Positions 45,008-57,901 of a stretch of 64,000 nucleotides of DNA are shown one piece after another. Within the stretch, counting starts at the first letter, position 1. Each line of letters starts with the position of its first letter. A model generated the notes under the pieces. That model was given only the letters and a program-made list of their open reading frames with translations, did no database searches and had not been told where the DNA came from. Made by a program: the position numbers and the translations under genes. This DNA is from Marinobacter lutaoensis. Lineage in GTDB: Bacteria; Pseudomonadota; Gammaproteobacteria; Pseudomonadales; Oleiphilaceae. The stretch lies in assembly GCF_001981305.1 (NCBI RefSeq), contig NZ_MSCW01000001.1, forward strand, positions 310,001-374,000, in the 5' to 3' direction.

Positions 45008-45722
<715 letters not shown>

Positions 45723-47966: not shown

Positions 47967-48052
47967 CACATAACGCCCGCAGCATGCGCGGCTTTGGAGT
48001 GGAGGCGAAGCCGCAGTGGAAAAAACGTCGCTGTGCCTGCGATTGTTATGCC
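47967..48052 (-). repeat. attC site
   Basis: About 86 bases, ACATAACGCC ... GATTGTTATGCC on the + strand, with arms CAGCATGCGCGGCTTTGGAG / GAAGCCGCAG...CGTCGCTGTGCCTG. It is the same subtype as the sites at 49126 and 50204. Confidence 0.82.
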
Positions 48053-48603
48053 TTGACCCCAAAGCCTAGCCCCTTCATCAACCATTTCGTCGTACGATTG
48101 TCCAATGAATCAGCTCTACCCTTGAAGCCCTTCATGTTCCCGAAGGGTTTAAATCCTGCGATGCCACTGACTTCATTATTCAGTAGTTCCGCGTATTCCA
48201 AGACATCAGCAATAGCCTCGCGAATCTCGTTATCAGGAACCGACTTACCGTGAATGACTCGATCCCTAGTTTTCTCTGCTTCCTCCATTTTTTCAATTGT
48301 TTCCTTACTGAGCGGAGAACCAAAAACGTTTTTGAATATATCCTTGAACCCATCACGGGTTAAGTGCTGGTAGTTCATGACACGAGAAACAAACTCCCGT
48401 TTTCCGCGGTGAATCTTGACCACACCGCCATACAGAGTTCTGTTTTGAGCCTGCTCACATCTGAGGAAAACGTATGCGAGCGGTATGTCATAGGGAAACT
48501 CATTACCAACCAAATTGGGGAGGTGCGAGAAGTAATCCTTCACTTCCTGAGCTCGCTCCTCATAGAACTTATTCAATGCGATGTATGTGGGAATTCTAGC
48601 CAT
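48046..48603 (-). CDS. Predicted HEPN-type protein (cassette gene)
   Basis: 185 residues, helix-rich, no signal peptide. Near residue 113 it has EKTRDRVIHGK, an R-x4-H motif (Arg113, His118) followed by Gly-Lys, as in HEPN-domain RNases and APEA-HEPN-like proteins. The preceding and following helices (ETIEKMEEAEK and EIREAIADVLEYAELL) fit the helical bundle around such a motif. HEPN proteins often act as RNA-cleaving toxins or defence effectors, but no antitoxin partner is encoded in the same cassette. The assignment is from motif only. Confidence 0.6.
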   Translation of the reverse strand: MARIPTYIALNKFYEERAQEVKDYFSHLPNLVGNEFPYDIPLAYVFLRCEQAQNRTLYGGVVKIHRGKREFVSRVMNYQHLTRDGFKDIFKNVFGSPLSKETIEKMEEAEKTRDRVIHGKSVPDNEIREAIADVLEYAELLNNEVSGIAGFKPFGNMKGFKGRADSLDNRTTKWLMKGLGFGVKA

Positions 48604-53633: not shown

Positions 53634-53720
53634 ACATAACGCCAGCCATAAGCGGCGCCCTGACAAGGGCGTCCGGTGGAGGGCCATCGGCCCGGAACAG
53701 ACTTAATGGCCTTGTTATAC
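53634..53720 (-). repeat. attC site (long form)
   Basis: About 87 bases, ACATAACGCCAGCCATAAGC ... GGCCTTGTTATAC on the + strand, with GGCGCCCTGACAAGGGCG and GTCCGGTGGAGGGCC / GGCCCGGAAC blocks, nearly the same as the site at 55037. Confidence 0.84.
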
Positions 53721-54145: not shown

Positions 54146-55012
54146 CTAAACACCTAAATCCCGCTGTGGCACGAAACAGTCTAAGACATGGTATGCGATT
54201 GCCTCACCATGCATTCGCTTATGATCAATGATGGGGCGCACCGTAAAGTTTACGCCTTCCACATCCACAACCTTTTGCATTTTTGTTCTAATACCATCAT
54301 CCCAAGTTACCGGAAATTTCTCACCGCCAGAAACGATCGTGCCTCGGTGGGCGGAGAAGGCGACCATATCCAATCTGCCAGTAACTCGGATTGTGGCAGC
54401 GAGCTCTTCCTTATTTTGCCCTAAAATAACTCGATCATCTGGAGACAGGCGCATTTCATCGTCTCTAGCGGAAAACTGCGCATACTCTATTGCCTTTCCA
54501 TCGATTCCGGAAACCAGTCTATCCGTCGGGTATTTGGTAACTTGAGCCGCCCAAAGAATTTTGGGGTCGTTGATTCTGATGTCTCCATTTTCTGCATTGG
54601 CGATAATATTCCCGGAACCAATATTGAAGTTATTATTAATGGTGATATTAATTGGCAAGCCTTTATCTATTAACTCAGCAACCTGCTTCCGAAGGGTGAT
54701 CGCTTCGCCAAACAGCTTGGTAATACTCCCTGCAAGCTGGTAACCGCCATCTGCAGCCAAGGCTCCGATAATTTCTTTGTGCGTGAAAACGAAATCTATG
54801 AGGAATTCAATCGAGCCAGATTTTATTCTAGTTTGGTAGTCAATTTGGCTTTTGATTGCTGGAGTGAGCTGTCGGCGGCCGAGCTGTACGGCTATCAATC
54901 TGTCAGTGATTGAGCGGTAGCTAGAGATTAGGAGCTCCATTGATCTGAGATCATATATTCCGTCTTCGAACGCTGCACCCTTTGCATAGAGTCTCAGATC
55001 ATGGCCTTCCAT
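54146..55012 (-). CDS. Uncharacterised 288-residue protein (cassette gene)
   Basis: 288 residues, one of the two largest cassette genes. N-terminal half: MEGHDLRLYAKGAAFEDGIYDLRSMELLISSYRSITDRLIAVQLGRRQL, a helical region, then a weakly hydrophobic stretch (GALAADGGYQLAGSITKLFGEAITLRKQVAELI). An Asn-rich stretch (INITINNNFNIGSGNIIANAENGD) separates it from a beta-rich C-terminal domain (MVAFSAHRGTIVSGGEKFPVTWDDG...FTVRPIIDHKRMHGEAIAYHVLDCF). I do not recognise the family. ATG 55012 follows AGGAGAGG. No transmembrane helix is certain. Confidence 0.7.
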   Translation of the reverse strand: MEGHDLRLYAKGAAFEDGIYDLRSMELLISSYRSITDRLIAVQLGRRQLTPAIKSQIDYQTRIKSGSIEFLIDFVFTHKEIIGALAADGGYQLAGSITKLFGEAITLRKQVAELIDKGLPINITINNNFNIGSGNIIANAENGDIRINDPKILWAAQVTKYPTDRLVSGIDGKAIEYAQFSARDDEMRLSPDDRVILGQNKEELAATIRVTGRLDMVAFSAHRGTIVSGGEKFPVTWDDGIRTKMQKVVDVEGVNFTVRPIIDHKRMHGEAIAYHVLDCFVPQRDLGV

Positions 55013-55036
55013 AAGTTTGACCTCTCCTTTTTATTT

Positions 55037-55124
55037 TTGGCTAACGCCAGCAATAAACGGCGCCCTGACAAGGGCGTCCGGTGGAGGCCCGTTGGGCCGA
55101 AACGAATTTAATTGCCTTGTTATA
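55037..55124 (-). repeat. attC site (long form)
   Basis: About 88 bases, GGCTAACGCCAGCAATAAAC ... TGCCTTGTTATA on the + strand, with GGCGCCCTGACAAGGGCG and GTCCGGTGGAGGCCC / GGGCCGAAACG blocks. Confidence 0.84.
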
Positions 55125-55125
55125 T

Positions 55126-56283
55126 TTATTTGTAAACCGGCCTAAAATCAACCATGTGTTCAGGGAGCAGGACGCCTAACCTACCATTCTTTTTGTTAAA
55201 TCCAAGCTGCCTTCTTCCCACTGTAAGCGCGACTTCCGATCTAACTTCAGGATTAAGCTTACTCATAATGTATTTTATAAAATTGGTAACCGCATCGTGA
55301 TCCTTGTATATGCCTTTGAACCCCACCGAATCTAATGACACGCCGATTGATCTATCCCAGAAGTCTTGATACTCCAAGAAAATTGGGACTTTACCTCTAA
55401 AGTAAACATCCCCTATTGCAAGCTTATTTACTTCTACATTTCCATGCAAAAGATCATTTCGCTCATTCATTAGTGAATGAAAATCTCCACATTCCTTGGA
55501 AGAATAGTCGATATGCTCTTCAAACCCAACGCAATTAATATGCAATGACTGAACTCGCACATCTATCGGTTGCCGGAGCACATTCTGAAATAATCTGTCG
55601 TTATTCTTTATATCTTTTTTACAAAGCATGAACAATATTAAGTTAACAAATGACTCCCCGAGAACGGGCAGCATAGAGCGCAGACCAAAAACCAAACCAA
55701 CCGCGAAGCTATATTTTTCAGCAACTGCCCCCCATCGCTCTTGATATAAAACCATATCGTCCGCTGATTTTGGTTGAGGAACTTTATCCTCTTCGGGATT
55801 AATATTTAACTCATTGAGCCTTTTAAAGTGCTGGTCAACTGCGGAAAAAATTCTATGATAAGGGTTAACAAATTGCGTCCATTTCTCTAGGTCTTTTCTT
55901 AACTCAGATATCTGCCGCCCATAGTTTCCAATATCTGACTTTATTTGGGTTATGAAATTCTCTAATGTTAATGCCTTGCCTTTAAAGTCACCGATCAGGT
56001 GAACCTCAGTACGAAAATTGTGTCCTTGTACAAGAGTCAGACCGTACTCTCCAGCTAGAGCCCATTCCCAATGGATTAGGTTGTCAGAATCATCAGACCT
56101 AAAAAAGTTCTGCATACCATTCGGCTGTCCATACTTGGCATAGAGATAGCAGTATAGATCTATTGGTTTGATCTCATTGGTAAATTCCCATACCTCACCA
56201 CCCTTTGGAAGTTTCTCGCCAAGTAGTATTTTGGCGAGACAAGAGGGATGTAAGGCGTCGAGCCTTAAGAAGTAATCTTCCAT
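55126..56283 (-). CDS. Predicted HEPN-motif protein (first cassette gene)
   Basis: 385 residues, the longest cassette gene and the first in the array, hence best placed for expression from a cassette promoter. It is soluble, with charged helices (about residues 105-160) and a C-terminal region with MNERNDLLHGNVEVN at residues 272-286, an R-N-x3-H motif (Arg275, Asn276, His280) of HEPN type. A hydrophobic helix at about 195-222 packs before it. The N-terminal 100 residues look like a separate beta domain. No family is named. HEPN assignment rests on the motif only. Confidence 0.6.
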   Translation of the reverse strand: MEDYFLRLDALHPSCLAKILLGEKLPKGGEVWEFTNEIKPIDLYCYLYAKYGQPNGMQNFFRSDDSDNLIHWEWALAGEYGLTLVQGHNFRTEVHLIGDFKGKALTLENFITQIKSDIGNYGRQISELRKDLEKWTQFVNPYHRIFSAVDQHFKRLNELNINPEEDKVPQPKSADDMVLYQERWGAVAEKYSFAVGLVFGLRSMLPVLGESFVNLILFMLCKKDIKNNDRLFQNVLRQPIDVRVQSLHINCVGFEEHIDYSSKECGDFHSLMNERNDLLHGNVEVNKLAIGDVYFRGKVPIFLEYQDFWDRSIGVSLDSVGFKGIYKDHDAVTNFIKYIMSKLNPEVRSEVALTVGRRQLGFNKKNGRLGVLLPEHMVDFRPVYK

Positions 56284-56340
56284 AAAACGCCATTCTCAGA
56301 AAAAATATAACAGCAGTTAGGCAGAACGCTTCGATATTGC
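56284..56340 (-). other. Possible attI/attC core region upstream of the first cassette
   Basis: On the minus strand, GCGTTCTGCCTAAC and then GGCGTTTTATG directly precede the first cassette gene. The first could be an attI core joined to an R'' box; the second is a degenerate R' core (GTTTTAT instead of GTTRRRY). The 24-base interior is too short for a normal attC. Either the attI site or a collapsed first cassette would fit. Confidence 0.35.
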
Positions 56341-56399
56341 GCAACTTTGACTGCGTCATGATTACGCAATTTCATGGCACGAGCGTCCGCCAATGTCTC

Positions 56400-56428
56400 A
56401 ATTCATTCATCAGCCTAGCCGATGTCAA
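56400..56428 (-). promoter_or_regulatory. Candidate cassette promoter (Pc)
   Basis: A consensus TTGACA on the minus strand at 56428-56423 points towards the first cassette. The -10 at about 17-base spacing (near 56405-56400) is poor (TGAATT or ATGAAT). The position between the intI-like promoter and the array is where integron cassette promoters lie. Confidence 0.35.
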
Positions 56429-56449
56429 GGCGCTTCGCCATGGAATCAT

Positions 56450-56496
56450 TTGACATCCACAATTTACTCTTACGATAACACTGTATAAATATCCAG
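56450..56496 (+). promoter_or_regulatory. Promoter with LexA box, facing away from the array
   Basis: TTGACA (56450-56455), an 18-base spacer and GATAAC (56474-56479) form a sigma70 promoter. CTGTATAAATATCCAG (56481-56496), a CTG-N10-CAG LexA box close to the gammaproteobacterial consensus, directly follows the -10. It drives the ATG at 56513. SOS-controlled promoters of this form are characteristic of integron integrase genes. Confidence 0.65.
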
Positions 56497-56512
56497 TTGC
56501 CGGGGAGGCCCC

Positions 56513-56611
56513 ATGGACGGGACGTCGCTTCGCCTGTGGGAGCCGGTGCGCACTACCATTCGTTTCAACCACTGGGTGCTACCTGTATTGCCCCGGCTAC
56601 TGCGGACACTG
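56513..56611 (+). pseudogene. Probable relic of the integron integrase gene
   Basis: ATG at 56513 follows GGGGAGG. The first codons read MDGTSLRLWEPVRTTIRFNHW. The spacing V-R-x-x-I-R-x-x-H-W fits the start of IntI proteins (V. cholerae IntIA has SVREFMQTRYYA at the same distance from its Met). The +1 frame just after reads CYLY, recalling the YLYWI motif that follows in IntI, so a frameshift or deletion is likely. Everything beyond ~56600 is the 3' end of the convergent sensor kinase gene. Identification rests on a short weak match plus promoter type and position. Confidence 0.4.
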
Positions 56612-57901
56612 CTAATAAGAGGCGGGGCAAACCTCCACTTCGGCCTGGTAGACGCCATCCCGCAGCGCATGATGATAGCGCCAGCCGAGACGTTGGCTGA
56701 GCTGTTCGGTCAGTTCCAGGCCCAGGCCGTAGCCGGTCTGTTGCTGGAGGTCGGAGTCGTCCGGATTTTCCAGGCCCACCGGGTTACGGATGACGATGCG
56801 GGCGCCGTGCTGTTCGATGCGCACGCTGTCATGCCAGCAGTGTTGATAGGCGTTGCGTATGAGGTTACCGAGAACAATACGGGCCGGGATCAGGGGAAGG
56901 GCGCAGGTGAACGGGCTGGTGACGATTCGGGTGCGGACTGGCTTGCCGGTCAGCAGATAGGCCATTTCGTCGGCCAGTTCGCGCACCAGCCGGGCCAGAT
57001 CGACGTCCTGAGCTTGCAGAGGTTCGTCCGGCTGATGGTTCAGCCACAGCAGGGTTTCGGTGAGATGCTGCATGGTCAGGCTGGCACGGTCGATGCGATC
57101 CAGAATGGCTTGCTGTGCCTCGTCGGTGGCCTGGCGCGCGGTCAGTTTGCGTTGCAGCTCGACGTTGGAGCGGATGGTGCTGATGGGGGTGCGCAGCTCG
57201 TGGCTGGCATGACGCAGGAACCGGCGCTCTCGTTCCAGCGCGGCCTGCACGGAGGACAGGCTGGTGCGAATCAGTTCTGCCAGCTCGTTCAGCTCCGGGT
57301 AGGCGAAGTCCGGTACCGGCTGGGCCAGCTTGTCGCGGTCCAGGGCATGGGTCCAGGCGCGCAGGGCCGCCATGGGGCGGGACACGTGGCGCAACAGCAG
57401 CCAGCTGATCAGGGCGATAAACCCCAGCACCACCAGGCTGACGGTAAGCATGAACTGCCGGTTCTGCCGTACCGTGGCGTGGACGACGGTGGACTTCACC
57501 GGTGGCGTCAGTTCCCGGGCGATGTACAAAGGCCCTTCCTGGGTGTCGTAACGCATCAGGAACACCATGCGCTCGGGGCGGCGGAACCCGCCGCCGTCCG
57601 AGGCCTTGTACAGGAGGGCGGGCTCCGTTGGTGGCTGCGCGAAGGACTGGCGCACGTAGTCTGGCATGCGCTGCCAGTCCGCCGCCAGATAGAAGCCGCT
57701 GAACTCCTGGCCCTGGCGCTGTTGTTCGGGGCCGACCAAGCGCAGGAAGGTGCGCGCGGTTTTTTCCATGTTGGCGGCCATGGAGGCGTCCAGTCCGCGG
57801 ATGAAGTAGTCCTTGGAGATCATGGAGTAGGCTGCCATCAGCACCAGTCCGAGGGAGAGGAAGGACGCGACCAGCAAGCCTTTCAGGCTGATCCTAGGCA
57901 T
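56612..57901 (-). CDS. Sensor histidine kinase
   Basis: 429 residues. It has a first helix (residues 8-26), a periplasmic sensor region of about 120 residues, a second helix (about 152-170) and a HAMP-like linker. The dimerisation domain has the H-box LRHASHELRTPI with phospho-accepting His234, then the catalytic ATPase domain with LGNLIRNAYQHC (N-box) and GYGLGLELTEQL (G-box). It probably senses an envelope signal and phosphorylates the response regulator encoded just upstream, with an 8-base overlap. Its 3' end faces the integron relic. Confidence 0.93.
   Translation of the reverse strand: MPRISLKGLLVASFLSLGLVLMAAYSMISKDYFIRGLDASMAANMEKTARTFLRLVGPEQQRQGQEFSGFYLAADWQRMPDYVRQSFAQPPTEPALLYKASDGGGFRRPERMVFLMRYDTQEGPLYIARELTPPVKSTVVHATVRQNRQFMLTVSLVVLGFIALISWLLLRHVSRPMAALRAWTHALDRDKLAQPVPDFAYPELNELAELIRTSLSSVQAALERERRFLRHASHELRTPISTIRSNVELQRKLTARQATDEAQQAILDRIDRASLTMQHLTETLLWLNHQPDEPLQAQDVDLARLVRELADEMAYLLTGKPVRTRIVTSPFTCALPLIPARIVLGNLIRNAYQHCWHDSVRIEQHGARIVIRNPVGLENPDDSDLQQQTGYGLGLELTEQLSQRLGWRYHHALRDGVYQAEVEVCPASY

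Follow-up and report, generated by a model that had tools for sequence, protein, structure and literature searches.

Integron cassettes form a large store of unnamed genes, and the anti-phage genes among them have received recent attention. HepT toxins of MNT-HEPN pairs, which are ~130 aa long and come with an MNT antitoxin, have an Rx4H-type site, as does the protein described here, and RnlA/LsoA is an anti-T4 toxin with an N-terminal part that works with an antitoxin. HEPN proteins are already known from integron cassettes, and the description of the superfamily places the motif at the end of helix 3, with mostly N, D or H after the arginine, and the acidic residue, where present, in helix 2 (PMC3710099). 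HEPN RNases typically dimerise through the HEPN domain, and DS-11 is a validated one-protein CBS-HEPN defence system in which the HEPN catalytic residues are needed (PMC13092281). Here, we describe a protein family from a decayed integron of Marinobacter lutaoensis; the novelty lies in the family as such, in an N-terminal domain without a match and in mobility as a cassette. We found no paper describing this family, which, being nameless, could not be searched for by name; supplementary tables were outside the scope of the search.

The gene lies in a stretch of 64,000 nucleotides of the genome, hereafter called the window. The original prediction had described it as encoding a protein of 385 residues, with RNDLLH at residues 275-280, all of which was borne out:

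55126..56283, minus strand: ORF of cassette 1, ATG start, 385 aa, no internal stop

within 55126..56283, minus strand: N-terminal alpha/beta domain (~26-131) and predicted HEPN domain (~140-342), with R275-N-x3-H280-G-N and Glu210

As had been claimed, the window protein belonged to no recognised family: it had no match in Pfam, PADLOC 2.0 or NCBIfam at E<=5, in PHROGs at E<=1e-5 or among PDB sequences at E<=10. Taken alone, the R-N-x3-H motif would be weak evidence for HEPN; among 91 control proteins, 8 contained R[NDH]xxxH, 3 contained RNxxxH and none contained RNxxxHG. The motif stands above chance because it is conserved across relatives.

Such relatives were found in a scan of GTDB genomes (16 loci, 43-81% identity in the best segment, the locus at 81% being a fragment), on viral contigs (6 loci) and on plasmids (5 records). 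The phage records searched held none, and two relatives used as queries gave no DNA match in E. coli genomes. Hosts in the GTDB scan included Vibrio, Psychrobacter, Acinetobacter, Rheinheimera, Methylobacter, Pseudomonas, Polaromonas, Caballeronia, Desulfobulbaceae and Chlorobiales. The gene was present in 1 of 145 closely related genomes and in 1 of 369 genomes of a class sample, in both cases the window genome itself, and in 7 of 398 genomes of a phylum sample, window genome included. That so rare a gene occurs in distant hosts, with identities of up to 69%, suggests that it has been transferred horizontally.

We aligned 25 sequences with 22-68% identity to the window protein, 24 of them distinct (L016 and L027 are the same in sequence); L024 and L025, both partial, and L032, a partial match and near-copy of L031, were omitted from the alignments. 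Invariant positions numbered 24 and included R275, N276, H280, G281, N282, P206, E210, R237 and C251. Conservation of Arg275 and His280, on which the original prediction had staked its HEPN interpretation, thus held in 25/25 sequences. R-N-x3-H-G-N was also present in 6/6 further relatives (ERNDLLHGN, RRNFALHGN, DRNDLLHGN, KRNNSIHGN and, twice, RRNHHLHGN), which represent four genera (two pairs share one), include three partial matches and were found in the phylum search by a profile that itself includes the motif. R275-N276-x3-H280 has the Rx4-6H form with a polar residue after the arginine, and the acidic residue, E210, invariant in 25/25, falls in helix 2 (174-220 in the model below). The Ex3[KR] form, in which this acidic residue often occurs in HEPN families, was absent around E210, position 214 being N in 24 of the 25 rows. 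One of the three partial matches, L085, carried an in-frame TGA at the edge of the match and retained the HEPN part.

An AlphaFold2 model built from 21 sequences (mean pLDDT 89, pTM 0.80) predicted four C-terminal core helices, 141-159, 174-220 (with E210), 263-280 (with the motif, 275-280, at its end, towards the loop to helix 4) and 322-341, and a ~40-residue insert with a beta hairpin between the motif and the last core helix. The four-helix bundle foreseen around residues 200-290 was therefore present in the model, but the HEPN core spans ~140-342 and not only that segment. Likewise, the hydrophobic helix said to precede the motif corresponded to a hydrophobic stretch at ~200-222, which the model makes the C-terminal end of the long bundle helix 174-220. 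Foldseek with the whole model returned nothing at E<=0.001 against PDB and BFVD. In a VIA-align comparison among 995 chains, a re-examination of Foldseek candidates in which rows within 1 of each other count as tied, ranks 1-5 were all HEPN toxins, led by 6m6u_H (Z 8.0, a value that for a helical bundle can reflect a common arrangement; rmsd 3.7, 122 aligned, 9% identity). Next came Csm6 (Z 5.8, rank 6), STAT3 (Z 5.4, rank 7), metavinculin (Z 5.3, rank 8) and LsoA (Z 5.2, rank 9). Because predicted fold, motif position and conservation agree, we consider it very probable that the window protein belongs to the HEPN superfamily, and the HEPN interpretation of the original prediction is supported.

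The closest known systems nevertheless each differ from the window protein. The HepT / HEPN-MNT toxins (6m6u, 7bxo, 8xdj, 6m6w, 8xeh) have the four-helix HEPN fold in common with residues 138-352 of the model (Z 6.3-8.0), whereas the window protein is 385 aa long, has an N-terminal domain and no partner, and is 9-12% identical to them. LsoA is alike in HEPN fold and had no sequence match to the window protein. The HEPN family represented by PDB 3jrt is likewise encoded in an integron cassette (PMC3710099), and differs from the window protein in sequence, no PDB chain having matched at E<=10. DS-11 also joins a sensor-like and a HEPN domain in one protein, but its sensor is a CBS domain (PMC13092281), and the N-terminal domain of the window protein had no convincing match. 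HEPN_MAE_28990 (PF18737) and ApeA (PF18739) have the R-N-x3-H motif in common with the window protein, but the family scores under the Pfam cut-offs: over its 25 members no HEPN model reached the cut-off, the best being HEPN_Apea (E 0.096) and MAE_28990 (E 0.2), in 2/25 each. Non-HEPN models scored better in some members (DUF1947, E 0.00043, in 3; DivIVA, E 0.0057, in 6). With small comparison sets (5 and 3 sequences), the hhalign match to MAE_28990 was limited to 15 columns at the motif (probability 34, E 0.00043), and there was no profile match to ApeA (probability 0.5), so that neither was retained as a closer HEPN subfamily. PADLOC over 25 relatives gave six families with one weak member each (best E 0.00059), which did not amount to membership in any, and a search of PDB sequences with the family profile returned only SEC2 (E 0.57) and Cas8f (E 1.1).

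Residues 26-131 were predicted as a small alpha/beta domain, with a pLDDT of 87.5 when modelled alone. Its invariant residues (P40, D42, Y46, P54, G56, S66, N68 and W72; domain consensus DLYCYL.AKFG.PNG...DDSDNLIHW) suggest a binding site. With the domain alone, Foldseek reached a best E of 0.092, with many PR-10/Bet v 1 and eIF4E rows, all those listed having a probability <0.5, and the best VIA-align row was an adaptin appendage (Z 5.6), with PR-10/START-like rows at Z 4.2-5.1. The weak eIF4E matches do not support a cap-binding reading, nor do the weak PR-10/START-like matches support one with a hydrophobic ligand. This domain has no convincing fold match, and a missing match does not equal a new fold. 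Sensing or inhibition would be its role in the mechanism proposed below.

The gene stands at the head of an integron cassette array, with the following parts:

55045..56310, minus strand: cassette 1, 1266 nt, bounded by the first T that follows its start core and the G that precedes the next core

55039..55125, minus strand: attC of cassette 1, R'' ATATAAC ... hairpin ... R' GTTAGCC, 87 nt

54146..55012, minus strand: ORF of cassette 2, no Pfam match

56304..56497, minus strand: region read as attI/leader, with copies at C22:301630-301823 (93%) and C20:354914-355101 (68%)

56513..56572, plus strand: 5' stub of intI, ~20 codons, MDGTSLRLWEPVRTTIRFNH against MLGKQPRLRDQVRAVIRVNR of the C20 remnant, then divergence (by eye)

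A single ORF occupies ~91% of cassette 1. The cassette has its attC at the 3' end, and the R'' of this attC (a copy of which, 87% identical, lies at 53637-53719) pairs 7/7 with the start core GTTATAT (first base 56311, minus strand). Pairing is also 7/7 in cassettes 2, 3 and 4, each with its own attC, but only 4/7 in cassettes 5 and 6 as delimited, where an attC may have been skipped, and we claim cassettes 1-4 alone. We read 56304-56497 as attI/leader because it recurs twice in the genome, once beside an integron-integrase remnant: the C20 leader has on one side this remnant, which matches TIGR02249 over positions 3-167 of 315, and on the other an array of cassettes in which the same attC recurs. 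Cassette 1 adjoins the attI/leader, with 7/7 core pairing, and so has the first position ascribed to it by the original prediction, from which it may be the cassette most likely to be expressed. A putative LexA-box-like sequence, CTGTATAAATATCCAG (56481..56496, plus strand), lies where the integrase promoter would be expected. A sigma-70 scan of 54900-56700 gave no minus-strand site and one plus-strand site inside the gene (shuffle mean 3.6); cassettes are generally promoterless and read from the platform promoter Pc (PMC11551772).

The remainder of intI was not found beside attI in the window, and no match in the genome exceeded the TIGR02249 cut-off, as a complete integron would have required. 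The attI/leader is retained and intI survives only as a stub, which makes the array a decayed integron that lacks a functional integrase gene next to it; the attI/leader rules out an attC cluster without a platform. The neighbouring kinase was found at E<=1e-80 in 6 of 60 other genomes of the genus searched, and by eye no intI was seen within ~1.5 kb of these six kinase loci. The genome holds three attI/leader copies, none with an intact integrase (window 56304-56572, C20:354368-355101 and C22:301630-301823). The integrase traces amount to the stub of ~20 codons in the window, the remnant of ~170-180 codons in C20 and a shorter stub in C22, both stubs being judged by eye.

Cassette boundaries with 7/7 pairing were present in 6 of 23 family loci, L034 and L027 being excluded, against 1 of 261 control ORFs, which came from 16 stretches of the genomes of 11 relatives and of the window genome. 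When the R' core was also required, 5 of 23 family loci remained against 0 of 261 controls, the Rheinheimera locus L014 dropping out. The loci with 7/7 were the window, L014, Vibrio L010, the Catenovulum plasmid L028, Methylobacter L015 and Desulfobulbaceae L020; hairpins were weak in L014 (-7.4 kcal/mol) and L020 (-8.5 kcal/mol) as compared with the window (-18.0). By eye, L017 (6/7) and L018 (TTAGGC/GCCTAA without the G) also looked cassette-like but were not counted, L012 (6/7 pairing) did not look cassette-like, and L015 was among the loci that seemed to be solitary cassettes outside any array. Prophage settings, with phage integrase, primase, portal or terminase genes, were seen for L016/L027, L033, L034, L035 and L036.

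The original prediction had also suggested looking for defence islands around homologues. Within ~5 kb, 87 neighbour ORFs of 11 loci matched 117 PADLOC families at E<=1e-10, and in 11 control regions taken from the same genomes 91 ORFs matched 25, a ratio that overstates the difference because the families are redundant; only families were counted, names were given for 25 of the 117 and for all 25 of the controls, and the control matches could not be assigned to single regions, which leaves no per-locus control rate. Five of the 16 loci (L013, L017, L019, L024 and L025) were left out, having a short flank or contig or no control stretch. The control families (RtcR-like, E1-E2, pVip, DrmC and ZorB, with no restriction or modification family) likewise bear the names of defence systems, and we take them to be mostly matches of housekeeping paralogues. 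Among the family loci, matches were traced to 6 of 11 (again with no per-locus control rate): type I RM in L021, type III RM in L023, FRG/PDC-S15 in L022, SMEK/DUF2326 with an LmuB-like match in L020, Tin in L015 and two PDC-S31 in L010. None was traced to the other five, L011, L012, L014, L016 and L018, where few ORFs were scanned singly. Annotated Qat genes stood beside the distant relatives L030 (Agrobacterium) and L031 (Rhizobium) on plasmids typed conjugative, and in Rhizobium an ABC-three-component protein followed. Together with the prophages, these neighbours make a defence-island or prophage setting recurrent in the family, and the suggested association was thus found.

No partner gene recurred among the neighbourhoods of the relatives, by eye and BLASTP. 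The relative in L084 is followed by a protein that matches HEPN_Swt1 below the cut-off; this protein was rejected as a conserved partner, the neighbours of L030 and L029 being unrelated to it by BLASTP. With one ORF in the cassette and no neighbour in common, the evidence suggests a single chain that combines sensor and effector.

Collectively, these data lead us to propose that the window gene is probably a one-gene defence or toxin. More specifically, we find it reasonably likely that it encodes a single-gene, two-domain sensor-HEPN RNase, integron-borne and acting in anti-phage or related conflict. For the window protein, catalysis, trigger, expression and defence role are what we infer, along the following lines. 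The protein would dimerise via its HEPN domain, and its N-terminal domain would hold it in check until a phage or other invader is sensed. The protein would then cut RNA without metal via Arg275/His280, and growth or phage production would thereby be stopped. A more specific version, which we put forward only tentatively, is that the N-terminal domain is an undescribed phage-sensing domain gating the HEPN RNase, and that the family is a new single-gene, integron-mobile immune system common to such widely separated hosts as Vibrio, Acinetobacter, Caballeronia, Agrobacterium, Desulfobulbaceae and Chlorobiales. Phage sensing by the N-terminal domain, if it occurs, would add a new type of sensor to those of HEPN effectors. 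In any case, the family is now defined and testable, with its predicted catalytic residues, domain limits, cassette boundaries and ~30 relatives to compare.

The main alternative, put forward in 2013 for HEPN proteins of integron cassettes (PMC3710099), is that the HEPN RNase serves general stress dormancy or array stabilisation rather than phage defence. Two more cassette ORFs of the same genome are weakly HEPN-like, in line with this idea. However, the coding strand of cassette 1 has no second ORF of note, no partner recurs, and relatives occur within prophages and next to RM, Qat, Tin and ABC-3C genes, and we hold this alternative to be unlikely. It seems less probable still that the protein acts as the toxin in a toxin-antitoxin pair, with the antitoxin encoded in another cassette or elsewhere: its nearest structures are indeed the HepT toxins, but the gene often travels alone, with cassette boundaries directly around it, and its neighbours differ by lineage. 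In line with this, cassette 1 has no adjacent nucleotidyltransferase antitoxin, nor does the ORF of cassette 2 match Pfam. Near the plasmid relative L029, a protein on the opposite strand matched both NTase and HEPN models. Finally, some HEPN domains are thought to be non-catalytic (PMC3710099), but these do not have the motif, so that the R, N, H, G and N invariant in all the aligned and further relatives make a purely RNA-binding or regulatory domain very improbable here, and the two-domain RNase remains the reading that we prefer.

A few additional observations concern other ORFs of these arrays. A cassette ORF at 48046-48603 of the window (minus strand) contains a HEPN-like RDRVIHG, with HEPN_Swt1 at E 0.023, below cut-off, and an ORF of the C20 array, C20:358086-358628 (L082 5087-5629), contains RNMIAHAH, with HEPN_Swt1 at E 0.00023, below the curated cut-off. 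The integrons of the M. lutaoensis genome may thus hold several HEPN-like cassettes. At the distal end of the window array (45008-45722, plus strand), two ORFs look by eye like fragments of an IS110-type transposase. The first ORF after the C20 leader, C20:355129-356271 (L082 2130-3272), encodes 380 aa and is, by eye, DUF4238-like.
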